A stretch of DNA of 45,968 bases from Desulfurobacterium indicum (lineage in GTDB: Bacteria > Aquificota > Aquificia > Desulfurobacteriales > Desulfurobacteriaceae). Position 1 is the first letter of the stretch; each line of letters opens with the position of its first letter. Shown here piece after piece: positions 27,730 through 31,500 of the stretch. Made by a program: the position numbers and the translations under genes. The notes beneath the pieces were generated by a model. The model made no database searches and had not been told where the DNA came from. It saw only the letters and a list, made by a program, of their open reading frames with translations. The DNA is taken from NCBI RefSeq assembly GCF_001968985.1, contig NZ_MOEN01000012.1, forward strand, positions 1 to 45,968, given 5' to 3'.

Positions 27730-27752
27730 TGCCGGGGAAATTTTCCCCGGCA
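27730..27752 (-). terminator. Hairpin after the dodecaheme cytochrome gene
   Basis: A near-perfect palindrome, TGCCGGGGAAA against TTTCCCCGGCA with one base between, 6 bp after the cytochrome stop codon. No T-run follows on the minus strand, so it may terminate weakly or stabilise the mRNA 3' end. Confidence 0.5.
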
Positions 27753-27758
27753 TATGGA

Positions 27759-28838
27759 TTATTTCCAGTTGGTAATTTTTTCGAGGTTGATGTAGTTGAG
27801 CTTCCCGCCTTTTGCTCTGAAAGCTTTGAGTTTCTGAAGTAGAACTTTTTCTTTTGCAAACTCTGCCTTGAGAACGTCGTCCGGCTTGTTGTTGTCCTTG
27901 CAGGCAGGGTCGTGAGGTGTAATGTGACATGTGAGACAGTTTGGATACTTCTCGGCAATAGCCTTTCCGTGAGGATATTCGCCGTGACAATCCTGACATC
28001 TCGGGATAAATCCGTGCCTGTTGTGGTGACAGGCAACACATGCCACTTTGCTGTGCTTTGTAGTTGATGTTTCGAGGTTGTGTGCAACATAGCCGTGACA
28101 AGCTGCACATTGGGAATTTGGTGTATTCTTGCTGTAAGTAATGTTGACCGGATAGTGTGGGTTGTGGTGACAAGCAAAGCAGTCGTTGTTTGTTTGCTCC
28201 GGTCTGTGTGGAAGGTGGCATTCGAGACACTGTGGAATGTATCCGTGTGTGCTGTGGTGACATGCAGCACAGCCGATTTGCGTGTGCTTGGTTGGTTTTT
28301 CCTGCATAAGGTCATAGATAGGACCGTGACATACCTGACAGTTCTTGGCAACGAAGTTTTCAGGTTGTCCTGTGCCAGGATATTTCTTACCGCCGACATA
28401 ACCTGTAAACGGTGTTGTAACAGGCATTGGCTTTTTGATAGCGTGTGGATCTGTGTGACACTTCATACAATCTGGGAGAGAAGGTCCGTGGTAGAGTCCG
28501 TGGCACCTTGTACATTTAGGCATCAGTTCTTCCCAACCTTTGATGCCTTTTTTAGGACTCCACTCGTGGAATCTTTCGTGACAAATTGTACAGCTAAACT
28601 GGTGCCTTCCACCCTCTTTCTGCATCGCCTTATAGATGCTGTAGTGACAGGCGCCACAATCGGCTGGCTTAAGCGGTTGAACCGGTTTAGTAAATAAAGC
28701 CTTCTCTTCCGGACCTATTTTCGGAAGATTTCCTCCGTTTGTAAGGGAGGGTGGGCAGTTTGTAAGGGTTACACCGTAAGCCGTTGTAGCACCCATCAGC
28801 GCAGAGCAGAGGATGAGTGCCTTTAATTTCCCTCTCAT
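27759..28838 (-). CDS. Dodecaheme c-type cytochrome (three tetraheme modules)
   Basis: This 359-residue exported cytochrome has a signal peptide (1-22, cleavage near TAYG) and twelve CxxCH motifs at residues 61, 83, 109, 124, 167, 190, 204, 220, 244, 267, 281 and 301. They fall into three units of four with the same internal pattern, CxxCH...H-x(4)-CxxCH...P-x-CxxCH...CxxCH-x-x-PH, most clearly in units two and three. The C-terminal 40 residues are helical and lysine-rich without hemes. It is probably a periplasmic electron carrier; no catalytic partner is adjacent. The ATG at 28838 is chosen from GGAGGG 9 bases upstream. It has its own strong promoter and a 3' hairpin, so it is probably transcribed alone. 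Confidence 0.92.
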   Translation of the reverse strand: MRGKLKALILCSALMGATTAYGVTLTNCPPSLTNGGNLPKIGPEEKALFTKPVQPLKPADCGACHYSIYKAMQKEGGRHQFSCTICHERFHEWSPKKGIKGWEELMPKCTRCHGLYHGPSLPDCMKCHTDPHAIKKPMPVTTPFTGYVGGKKYPGTGQPENFVAKNCQVCHGPIYDLMQEKPTKHTQIGCAACHHSTHGYIPQCLECHLPHRPEQTNNDCFACHHNPHYPVNITYSKNTPNSQCAACHGYVAHNLETSTTKHSKVACVACHHNRHGFIPRCQDCHGEYPHGKAIAEKYPNCLTCHITPHDPACKDNNKPDDVLKAEFAKEKVLLQKLKAFRAKGGKLNYINLEKITNWK

Positions 28839-28881
28839 TATTAACAACCCTCCTGCTTTGGGATTTTCAACTTTACATCTA

Positions 28882-28910
28882 ATAATAACAGAGAGACTAT
28901 GTACTGTCAA
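28882..28910 (-). promoter_or_regulatory. Strong predicted promoter of the dodecaheme cytochrome gene
   Basis: Minus strand TTGACA (28910-28905), 17-bp spacer, TATTAT (28887-28882), giving a leader of about 35 nt. It lies 46 bp beyond the stop of the PilR-like gene. It is a sigma-70-type site, not a -24/-12 sigma-54 site, although a sigma-54 activator gene is next door. Confidence 0.7.
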
Positions 28911-28955: not shown

Positions 28956-30287
28956 CTATTGTGAAAGCCCGTATTTGGATAATCTATAACGAAATTCTCT
29001 GAATGTAAGTCCTAAAAGTGATGCTGCTTCTTTTTTCTTTCCTCCAGTTTTTTCCAGGGCTTTTAGCAGGTATTCTTTTTCCAGTTCTTCGAGAATGTTT
29101 TTTAAATTAACTCCTTCGTCCGGGATTATGATTTCTGTGTGGGGGTTTTTTTCTTCACCTGTTATGGGGAGAGAAAGAATATCTTTATCGGATAAAATTA
29201 TTGCTTTTTCAACAAGATTTCTTAATTCCCTGACGTTTCCTTTTAACGGTAGTGACATAACGTAATTTATGAAGTCCGATGATATAGATCCGAACTTTTT
29301 TCCGTATTTTTTAGACAGTTTTTTGGCAAAGTATTCTATGAGTGGAGGAATATCTTCTTTCCTTTCCCTTAGAGGGGGTAGGTTAATGGTAATGGTTGAT
29401 AATCTGTAAAAGAGATCTTCTCTGAATAAGCCTTTACTTATTTTTTCTTCAAGGTTACTGTTTGTTGCGGCTATTACTCTTACGTCAACTTCTTTTTCTT
29501 CAATCCCTCCTATTGGTCTTATCTTTTTCTCTTCTAAAAATCTCAAAAGTTTTGCCTGTAAAGGTAGAGGCATATCGCCTATTTCGTCCAGAAATAAAGT
29601 TCCTCCGTTTGCCTCTTCTATAAGCCCTTTTTTGTTTCTCGTTGCTCCTGTGAATGCACCTTTTTTGTAACCAAATAGCTCACTTTCAAGAAGTTCTGAT
29701 GGAAGTGATGCACAGTTTATTGCCACAAACGGAGCGGTTTTTCTGTTGCTCAGGTTATGGATTGTTCTTGCCACTACTTCTTTTCCCGTGCCGCTTTCAC
29801 CTGTAATGAGAACGTTTGTATCATAAGGGGCTATTTTTTTTATAAATTCTTTTATTTTTTTTATTTTCGGCGATTCTCCTATAAAATCTTTGTAGGTGTC
29901 TTCGTATTCTTCTACTTTTTTTTCAAGTTCGATTTTTTTCTTAACATTTCGGAAGATGAGTCTGAGTTCCGAGATATCAAACGGTTTTGCTACGTAGTCA
30001 AAAGCTCCGAGTTTTATTGCTTCTTTTGCCGTTTCAGATGATGCAAAGGCAGTTATTATGATTACTTCTGTTTTTAATTGTTTTTCCCTTACTTTTTTTA
30101 GAACTTCCATTCCAGAACCGTCCGGAAGTCTCAGGTCAAGTAGAATTAAATCGTAATCGTGGTTTTCCAGTTTTTTCAGACTTTCTTCTACATTTGCGGC
30201 TTCTTCTGTTTCGAAATCAAACTCTTCAAGCATCATTCCAAGAATATCTCTTATACTTTTTTCATCGTCAACTATTAGCGCTTTCAT
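28956..30287 (-). CDS. Sigma-54-dependent response regulator (NtrC family, PilR-like)
   Basis: This 443-residue activator has a receiver domain (1-120, phosphoacceptor D51 in LLDLRLPDG, KPFD lysine), an AAA+ sigma-54 activation domain (about 135-365) with Walker A GESGTGKE and the sigma-54-contacting GAFTGA loop, and a Fis-type helix-turn-helix at the C-terminus. The final segment (LLGLTFREFRYRLSKYGL) resembles the C-terminus of PilR. It overlaps the start of the upstream kinase gene by 20 bp, so the two form a two-component pair. Targets would be sigma-54 promoters; none was convincingly seen in the window. Confidence 0.9.
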   Translation of the reverse strand: MKALIVDDEKSIRDILGMMLEEFDFETEEAANVEESLKKLENHDYDLILLDLRLPDGSGMEVLKKVREKQLKTEVIIITAFASSETAKEAIKLGAFDYVAKPFDISELRLIFRNVKKKIELEKKVEEYEDTYKDFIGESPKIKKIKEFIKKIAPYDTNVLITGESGTGKEVVARTIHNLSNRKTAPFVAINCASLPSELLESELFGYKKGAFTGATRNKKGLIEEANGGTLFLDEIGDMPLPLQAKLLRFLEEKKIRPIGGIEEKEVDVRVIAATNSNLEEKISKGLFREDLFYRLSTITINLPPLRERKEDIPPLIEYFAKKLSKKYGKKFGSISSDFINYVMSLPLKGNVRELRNLVEKAIILSDKDILSLPITGEEKNPHTEIIIPDEGVNLKNILEELEKEYLLKALEKTGGKKKEAASLLGLTFREFRYRLSKYGLSQ

Positions 30288-31500
30288 TTTGTTCCTCTTT
30301 GTTTTCCAGCGGTATTTCGAAACAAAATTTACATCCTCCGTATATAGAAGATGTAACTGTTAGCCTGCCTCCCAATTCTATTGCTACCCTTTTGGCGATG
30401 GCAAGTCCCAGTCCTGTTCCGTCCTTTTTCTTGGTGAAAAACGGTTCGAAAATTTTTTCTTTGGAATCGCTGTCTATTCCAGGACCGTCGTCTTCAATAC
30501 ATATTTTCAGGATTTTTTTCTCATAGGATATGGATATGATTACCAGATTTTTTGACCATTCGAAAGCGTTTTTAACGATGTTTGATATGGCTGAGTAGAG
30601 AGATTTGTAGGGAACCGTTATTGTGAACTTTTTGTCTGGCATTATCAGTTTCAATTTTTTTTCAGGGTATATGTATCTGATAGATTCGACAATTTGTTTT
30701 ACCATTTCTTTTATGTTAACTTCCGTTTTCTGAACGTCAAGAGGTCTTGATAACATCAGAAAATCGTTGATTATAGAGGATAGCCTTTCGGTTTCTCTTT
30801 TAAGCAGGTCAAGAAGTTTTTTGTTGCATGTTTCTGATTCTGCCATCAGATCAACGGCAGCTTTTATAGAAGCGAGCGGGTTTTTGATTTCATGGGCAAG
30901 GTCGGCACTGATCCTGTATAGTCGTTTAAAGACTTCATTTTTCTTTTTTTCTTCTTCAAGTTGGGCAATGTATATTGTTTGATTTATCATTTTCTTTGCG
31001 AAAGTTTTTCCTGCTACATATATTGCGAAGAAGGCGACGCCGTTTAGAAAAAGCTTTATTGTCAAATCCTGAAATGTATACATTTTGGTTGTGTATAACG
31101 TTATTCCATATGTTATTAGAGAGATTATCGGAAACAGAACGGTCAAAGGTGATTCCAAGAAGAAAGAGGCAAAGAATATAGGAAAAAGATATAAAATGGC
31201 TATATAGTCCCAGTATAGGATGTTACTTTTTATTAGAGCAGAAATAAAGATGATGTCAAGTAAAAAATCATAAGGGTTTTCTTTCTTGTAGAACAGAGAT
31301 AGGAGAGATACCATGGAATAGAGGAATATAACGCCTAAGGAATAAACATTGTAAATGACAATTCCCTCTCTCCAGAGAGAGAGGGAAATAAGTATAAGAA
31401 AAAGCGAAGATGAGAATATGAAACGTGAAACCTTATAATAGAGAAAAAAGTCTTTCCAGAATGCCAGTTTTTTAGAGTTTTTCTTCAAGACTCTGCTCAT
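30268..31500 (-). CDS. Membrane sensor histidine kinase (PilS-like)
   Basis: This 410-residue kinase has an N-terminal region of about six membrane helices (about 20-165) with almost no periplasmic loop, the architecture of PilS-type intramembrane sensors. A coiled linker follows, then HisKA with the phosphoacceptor in [12 protein letters not shown] (near residue 203), the N-box region [11 protein letters not shown]1 EDDGPGID and G2 [13 protein letters not shown]. It pairs with the PilR-like regulator that follows with a 20-bp overlap. Its start region overlaps the purL end by 29 bp. The SD for ATG 31500 is weak, and a TTG slightly downstream (residue 5) is possible. The signal is unknown. 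Confidence 0.88.

Follow-up and report, generated by a model that had tools for sequence, protein, structure and literature searches.

The window analysed here is a stretch of 45,968 nucleotides from Desulfurobacterium indicum (contig NZ_MOEN01000012.1), whose minus strand carries a gene coding for a cytochrome with twelve heme-binding motifs. The features at this locus are the following:

30268-31500, minus strand: sensor histidine kinase, adjoining the sigma-54-type regulator
28956-30287, minus strand: sigma-54-type response regulator, the upstream neighbour
28882-28910, minus strand: sigma-70-type promoter TTGACA-17-TATTAT, 11/12 matches
28839-28881, minus strand: leader to the ATG, nearly identical in the four genomes of the genus
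27759-28838, minus strand: twelve-heme cytochrome gene, stop codon included, 359 amino acids, homologs known
28773-28838, minus strand: probable export signal (about residues 1-22), read from the sequence, no lipobox seen
28443-28658, minus strand: four-heme unit 1 (residues 61-132), hemes 1-4, distal histidines 79, 91, 117 and 132
28341-28442, minus strand: linker between units 1 and 2 (residues 133-166), from the alignment
28155-28340, minus strand: four-heme unit 2 (residues 167-228), hemes 5-8, distal histidines 185, 198, 211 and 228
27912-28109, minus strand: four-heme unit 3 (residues 244-309), hemes 9-12, distal histidines 262, 275, 290 and 309
27762-27902, minus strand: charged C-terminal tail (residues 313-359), from the alignment
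27731-27751, minus strand: palindrome directly after the stop codon, no T run

The frame starts with an ATG at 28838 and contains exactly 12 CxxCH motifs, situated at residues 61, 83, 109 and 124, at residues 167, 190, 204 and 220, and at residues 244, 267, 281 and 301. By chance, a 359-residue protein would hold hardly any of them (mean 0.15, maximum 3 in 5,000 residue shuffles), and the remaining five reading frames at the locus contain zero. A first-pass annotation of this DNA had reported twelve CxxCH motifs in 359 residues at 27759-28838, and both coordinates and motif count are borne out; the minus strand can be added, as the annotation gave none. It had also considered the protein to be exported, which is supported by a hydrophobic N-terminal stretch that resembles, and probably is, an export signal. 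In the alignment of homologs, the linker between units 1 and 2 is longer in the genus than in the homologs from the sister family and from another phylum described below, and the charged C-terminal tail is long only in the five aligned members from the Aquificota.

The gene order purL, histidine kinase, sigma-54 regulator, cytochrome, cysE, SPOR-domain gene, polA is shared by all four genomes of the genus, purL and polA having been assigned by eye. As the first-pass annotation had stated, no catalytic or quinol-oxidising subunit is adjacent, the neighbours being the two-component pair, cysE, the SPOR-domain gene and polA. Around cysE in nine of ten chosen genomes, no response-regulator match occurs within flanks of up to 1.5 kb. 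The hexamers and spacing of the promoter are identical in the four genomes, a sigma-70-type promoter is present in all five upstream stretches examined, and a simple pattern for sigma-54 promoters finds none in five upstream stretches. Since promoter and leader (28839-28910) are nearly identical in the four genomes whereas the DNA upstream of them has diverged, the twelve-heme gene is probably transcribed on its own. The same conserved stretch is possibly a regulated leader. The palindrome after the stop codon is found in the window only and is not conserved in the three sister genomes. A scan of the window with Rfam models detects 6 tRNAs and RNase P, and no match at the twelve-heme gene.

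The distal histidines of the protein follow a regular scheme, with offsets of +18, +8, +8 and +8 from the first cysteine of the respective motif, repeated three times with one-residue shifts. This pattern is present in all 11 aligned proteins, the window's included, except for two hemes in the protein of a sister-family genome (G114), heme 1 (+38) and heme 8 (+19), where insertions are found. No variation is seen in the 36 motif residues of the alignment or in 10 of the 12 distal histidine columns; the other two columns are shifted by one in three paralogs. Each of the twelve hemes is probably held by two histidines; the first-pass annotation had regarded such bis-His ligation as likely, and one conserved distal histidine per heme is what this ligation needs.

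In order to examine the internal repeat, all cysteines and histidines were masked, and the heme segments were scored pairwise and compared with 20,000 permuted orders. In the window protein, segment similarity peaks at lag 4 (p = 0.0026; p = 0.0017 in a rerun), and periods of 2, 3, 5 and 6 give p values of at least 0.33. The sister-family relative has a period of 4 as well (p = 0.00015), with period 2 also scoring (p = 0.023). The first paralog tested from the other phylum gives p = 0.0099 for period 4 and p = 0.0012 for period 2, and the second gives p = 0.118 for period 4 and p = 0.049 for period 6, so that the period-4 test is not significant in one of the four proteins tested. The strongest lag is 4 in all five proteins from the Aquificota, and in six proteins from outside this phylum it is 8 (four proteins), 9 (one) or 6 (one). 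Among five control multiheme proteins, one with 24 hemes also displays period 4, together with period 2, and period 4 alone is thus not peculiar to the twelve-heme family.

A tree of 33 units, three from each of the 11 proteins, needs only 3 changes of position label compared with a mean of 15.9 for shuffled labels. The units sort mainly by position across phyla, as would be expected if the triplication preceded the separation of the lineages. However, support is weak for 14 of the 30 inner branches, and neither unit 1 in one group of paralogs nor the second unit of the G114 protein joins its positional group. The triplicated four-heme module claimed by the first-pass annotation is supported by the masked period-4 test of the window protein. 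Its three units, placed at residues 61-128, 167-224 and 244-305, stand in number and are now extended to 61-132, 167-228 and 244-309, their phase allowing more than one division. Small tetraheme cytochromes (STC) align to hemes 4-7 of the twelve-heme profile, heme numbers being read from profile positions, and flavocytochromes c3 mostly align to hemes 4-7 too, one of them (1qo8) aligning to hemes 8-11; a division (3)(4)(4)(1) is therefore as defensible as (4)(4)(4).

At a threshold of E 1e-5, the window protein matches five of 136 genomes of its own phylum, namely all four of the genus and G114, whose twelve-heme protein is 51% identical, and no twelve-heme gene is found at this threshold in the other 18 genomes of the same family, several of which are incomplete. 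Searching 391 genomes at E 1e-6 with a profile made from these five sequences gives matches in 6, which belong to three genera and now include G302, a member of another phylum. Within that phylum, three of nine genomes match, all from one genus and each with a tandem pair of twelve-heme genes, and the full twelve-heme pattern is present in every one of the six proteins. One paralog possesses a lipobox, as read from its sequence, and could sit on the outer membrane. Sequence patterns derived from the twelve-heme protein identify one locus among the genome contigs and none among the viral contigs searched; plasmid records yield nothing at E 1e-5, and at E 10 weak matches turn up in 7 records. 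A wider profile (A2) matches 28 genomes at E 1e-5, of which 6 hold the twelve-heme family; the 22 others encode different kinds of multiheme proteins, as judged by heme number and spacing, and are excluded from the family count. Close relatives with one or two units do not occur among the profile matches, in a search not designed for such proteins. The twelve-heme cytochrome is real, rare and built as a triple repeat.

The genome of the window encodes a considerable set of further cytochromes. On contig C7, a cytochrome b561-type protein, multiheme proteins, an NHL propeller and a 24-heme protein form one cluster (L062 6264-12792), a candidate quinol-oxidising complex. Contig C31 codes for an octaheme cytochrome next to a NapC/NirT protein and contig C21 for a second octaheme cytochrome, both of which (L063 10096-12201, L064 8954-10474) are candidate nitrogen-oxide reductases. 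A triheme c7 protein with a lipobox is encoded on contig C25. The genome also possesses two OmcS-like genes, L067 7434-8636 on contig C21 and L079 7433-8770 on contig C4, and the twelve-heme gene lies among housekeeping genes on a contig separate from both. Each OmcS-like protein contains five CxxCH motifs and a conserved C-X5-CH, and a profile made from nine OmcS-like sequences finds OmcS (6ef8) at E 8.7e-20, in an alignment that covers profile positions 28-361 of 383; a search with a single OmcS-like sequence does not find OmcS.

The cluster on contig C21 (L067 1715-8636) comprises, in order, three genes lacking a family assignment, those for a PPIase, a 6-heme protein and an NHL propeller, and the OmcS-like gene. 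The same order is encountered in G392, a genome of the other phylum (L066 2322-11640), where a 26-heme protein replaces the 6-heme one. Identities between the two clusters are 31% for the PPIases (537 aligned positions), 32% for the propellers (284) and 47% for the OmcS-like proteins, and the three further genes are matched by size and place only. This shared order in two phyla suggests that the cluster was transferred as a block. The presence of OmcS-like genes in the Aquificota is arguably more interesting than the twelve-heme protein itself.

OmcS-like genes occur at E 1e-10 in four of 24 genomes of the order, which make up exactly the genus carrying the twelve-heme gene, and this co-occurrence is one evolutionary event, not four. 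At the same threshold, OmcS-like matches are found in 11 of 391 genomes and 8 of 261 genera, that is, in two of the three genera with a twelve-heme gene versus six of the 258 others (Fisher p = 0.0024, a value that treats genera as independent and ignores kinship). Another tie is provided by the beta-propeller gene NHL1, which adjoins an OmcS-like gene in the window's genome and whose ortholog (40% over 306 amino acids) adjoins the twelve-heme pair in all three genomes of the other-phylum genus. NHL1 and its ortholog share 237 bits, compared with 38 bits between NHL1 and the C21 propeller and 42 bits between the C7 propeller and the ortholog from G392. NHL1 is present in seven of 391 genomes (E 1e-40), all seven within the 11 that have OmcS-like matches, and by listed coordinates it lies within 1 kb of an OmcS-like match in six of the seven; in G302, the 6-kb contig with NHL1 carries the twelve-heme pair instead of an OmcS-like match. 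Three of the seven NHL1 matches (L106, L108, G158) have one in-frame stop each, one TAG and two TGA. Both the OmcS-like and the NHL1 profiles were built partly from genomes that were then counted, which inflates the co-occurrence, and the joint occurrence of OmcS-like and twelve-heme genes rests on two independent lineages. In G392, the twelve-heme pair, NHL1, one TPR gene and four OmcS-like genes are consecutive within about 10 kb, the four OmcS-like genes standing in a row on contig C84 (L031 13211-17963). The same contig (L068 336-3733) also encodes a decaheme protein of the DmsE/GSU2203 type with an adjoining GSU2204-family protein, followed by a separate 148-residue frame. G114 has the twelve-heme gene and, at the thresholds used, neither an OmcS-like match nor NHL1.

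Genomic context suggests a tie between the twelve-heme protein and extracellular electron transfer. We propose, giving this reading about an even chance of being right, that the protein is a soluble, exported dodecaheme acting as a periplasmic electron wire and buffer. In this mechanism, for which the export, periplasmic location, fold, bis-His ligation and partners of the protein, as well as the direction in which electrons flow, are all putative, inner-membrane quinol-oxidising multiheme proteins would deliver electrons to a twelve-heme chain composed of three related four-heme stretches, which would conduct or store them in the periplasm and pass them on to acceptors at the outer membrane. 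In the genus, the likeliest acceptor would be an extracellular system of OmcS-like cytochromes, whose genes lie elsewhere in the genome. The twelve-heme protein is not the only carrier to be considered, since the same genome encodes the triheme c7 lipoprotein, and another carrier could thus feed the outer membrane. According to excerpts of PMC10954620, OmcS filaments receive electrons from PpcA-E, and homologs of PpcA-E accompany those of OmcS in diverse bacteria, exceptions being a few marine bacteria and a few Geobacteraceae. The twelve-heme protein may either supplement or replace such triheme carriers. Hydrogen respiration with sulfur or nitrate, or extracellular acceptors, had been offered as roles by the first-pass annotation; the context favours the extracellular part without proving it, and soluble respiration is still a rival.

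This rival, which we consider somewhat doubtful, holds that the protein is a general periplasmic shuttle or store for soluble reductases, for example in nitrite reduction by the octaheme protein encoded beside NapC/NirT, or for polysulfide reduction, and has no extracellular role. It would account for G114, which lacks OmcS-like and NHL1 matches, and for a gene with its own promoter and no linked partner gene, in a genome that encodes a NapC/NirT protein beside an octaheme cytochrome and a second octaheme cytochrome besides. A general shuttle would be harder to reconcile with the lack of the gene at E 1e-5 in all 18 other genomes of the family, several of them incomplete, and with the adjacency of the other-phylum genes to NHL1 and, in G392, to OmcS-like genes.

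An extension of the wire-and-buffer reading, one that we regard as speculative and quite doubtful, is that an OmcS-like filament kit, made up of PPIase, NHL propellers, small multiheme proteins and the OmcS-like cytochrome, passed between phyla along with the three-tetraheme cytochrome, and that the latter charges filaments in hydrogen-fed vent autotrophs. If true, the Aquificota would have gained access to solid acceptors or a way of taking up electrons.

It is improbable, in our view, that the twelve-heme protein belongs to a porin-cytochrome conduit of the outer membrane as its periplasmic half, in the manner of Pcc of Anaeromyxobacter and Kuenenia. Size and heme count come near those of Pcc (338-344 amino acids and 12-14 hemes in excerpts of PMC4245776), and the twelve-heme profile matches 6r2q_A (E 7.6e-6), split into four weak stretches. 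However, no porin adjoins the twelve-heme gene, the genome has zero MtrB/PioB matches at E 0.001 (a Pfam model that also misses the porin-like protein of G392), the score for the DmsE family is 12.6 versus 192.2 bits, and in G392 it is a separate decaheme protein that adjoins the porin-like gene. That the protein itself is secreted and polymerises into a filament is very improbable: many hemes per chain could form a wire and the lipobox read in one other-phylum paralog makes an outer-membrane placement possible, but OmcS is absent from the 41 chains that the twelve-heme profile matches at E <= 1, and each heme has its own conserved distal histidine in the chain, so that no ligand need come from a neighbouring subunit.

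If the link of the wire-and-buffer protein to the OmcS-like system holds, extracellular electron transfer of the OmcS type extends to a lineage of vent autotrophs and works there with a carrier that differs from PpcA. It would then also be an instance, open to testing, in which an electron-transfer kit crossed from one phylum to another, and might explain how vent cells reduce insoluble sulfur or minerals. The mechanism of thiosulfate reduction of the related D. thermolithotrophum HR11 is stated to be unknown in an excerpt of PMC12724263. In the openly available literature searched on multiheme proteins and extracellular electron transfer of Desulfurobacterium, no mention of the twelve-heme gene was met.

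Comparison with known families places the protein in a broad class. Its only family scores above cut-off are those for two broad Pfam heme families, Cytochrom_c3_2 (34.1 bits, gathering cut-off 25) and Cytochrome_C7 (32.1 bits, cut-off 24.8), each over part of the protein, and the locus is not listed at E 0.001 in a genome-wide search with Cytochrom_c3_2. Structure predictions, the check proposed by the first-pass annotation, have a mean pLDDT of 38.0 when made from 5 sequences and of 47.2 for a compact other-phylum paralog with 11 sequences, values too low for a usable model. Most of the solved structures related by profile are cytochromes that act as electron carriers or conduits (3ov0, 6r2q_A, a nine-heme cytochrome and STC). 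The best match is the cytochrome c family protein 3ov0 (E 4.6e-8), which we take to be GSU1996, a dodecaheme c7. GSU1996 comprises 318 residues and twelve hemes in four triheme domains, and such a triheme-domain architecture is not supported for the window protein, in which period 3 gives p = 0.53 versus p = 0.0026 for period 4.

With STC/CctA, the likeness consists in the alignment to the middle of the profile (hemes 4-7; 1m1p, E 4.3e-4). Unlike STC/CctA, the protein has twelve hemes in one chain of 359 residues, and with 21.7 versus 180 bits it does not reach the cut-off of the equivalog model NF047727, so that membership in this family is rejected. The heme domain of the flavocytochrome c3 fumarate reductases is similar over the same four hemes, or over hemes 8-11 in the case of 1qo8 (E 0.016). 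The decahemes of the DmsE/MtrA type belong to the same broad multiheme class, and the profile has a weak match to 6r2q_A, presumably MtrA, a chain that the structure table names otherwise. Membership in this type is rejected as well, since the score for TIGR03508 lies far below its cut-off of 192.2 bits. The one decaheme control, from G392, passes TIGR03508 and NF041028 and has distal histidines that largely alternate between +16/+17 and +7 to +10; this alternation is absent here, where the series is +18, +8, +8, +8. An MtrA-type decaheme with two extra hemes, the outcome that would have contradicted the first-pass annotation, was therefore not seen.

The periplasmic Pcc cytochromes of Anaeromyxobacter and Kuenenia, with 12-14 hemes in 338-344 residues, are alike in size and heme count as far as their published description in excerpts of PMC4245776 goes, a source that also lists porin-cytochrome clusters including one in D. 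thermolithotrophum DSM 11699. Unlike at the Pcc loci, no porin gene adjoins the twelve-heme gene in any of the four genomes of the genus. With PpcA-E, as described in excerpts of PMC10954620, the likeness lies in the proposed role only, the protein described here having twelve hemes and a period of 4.
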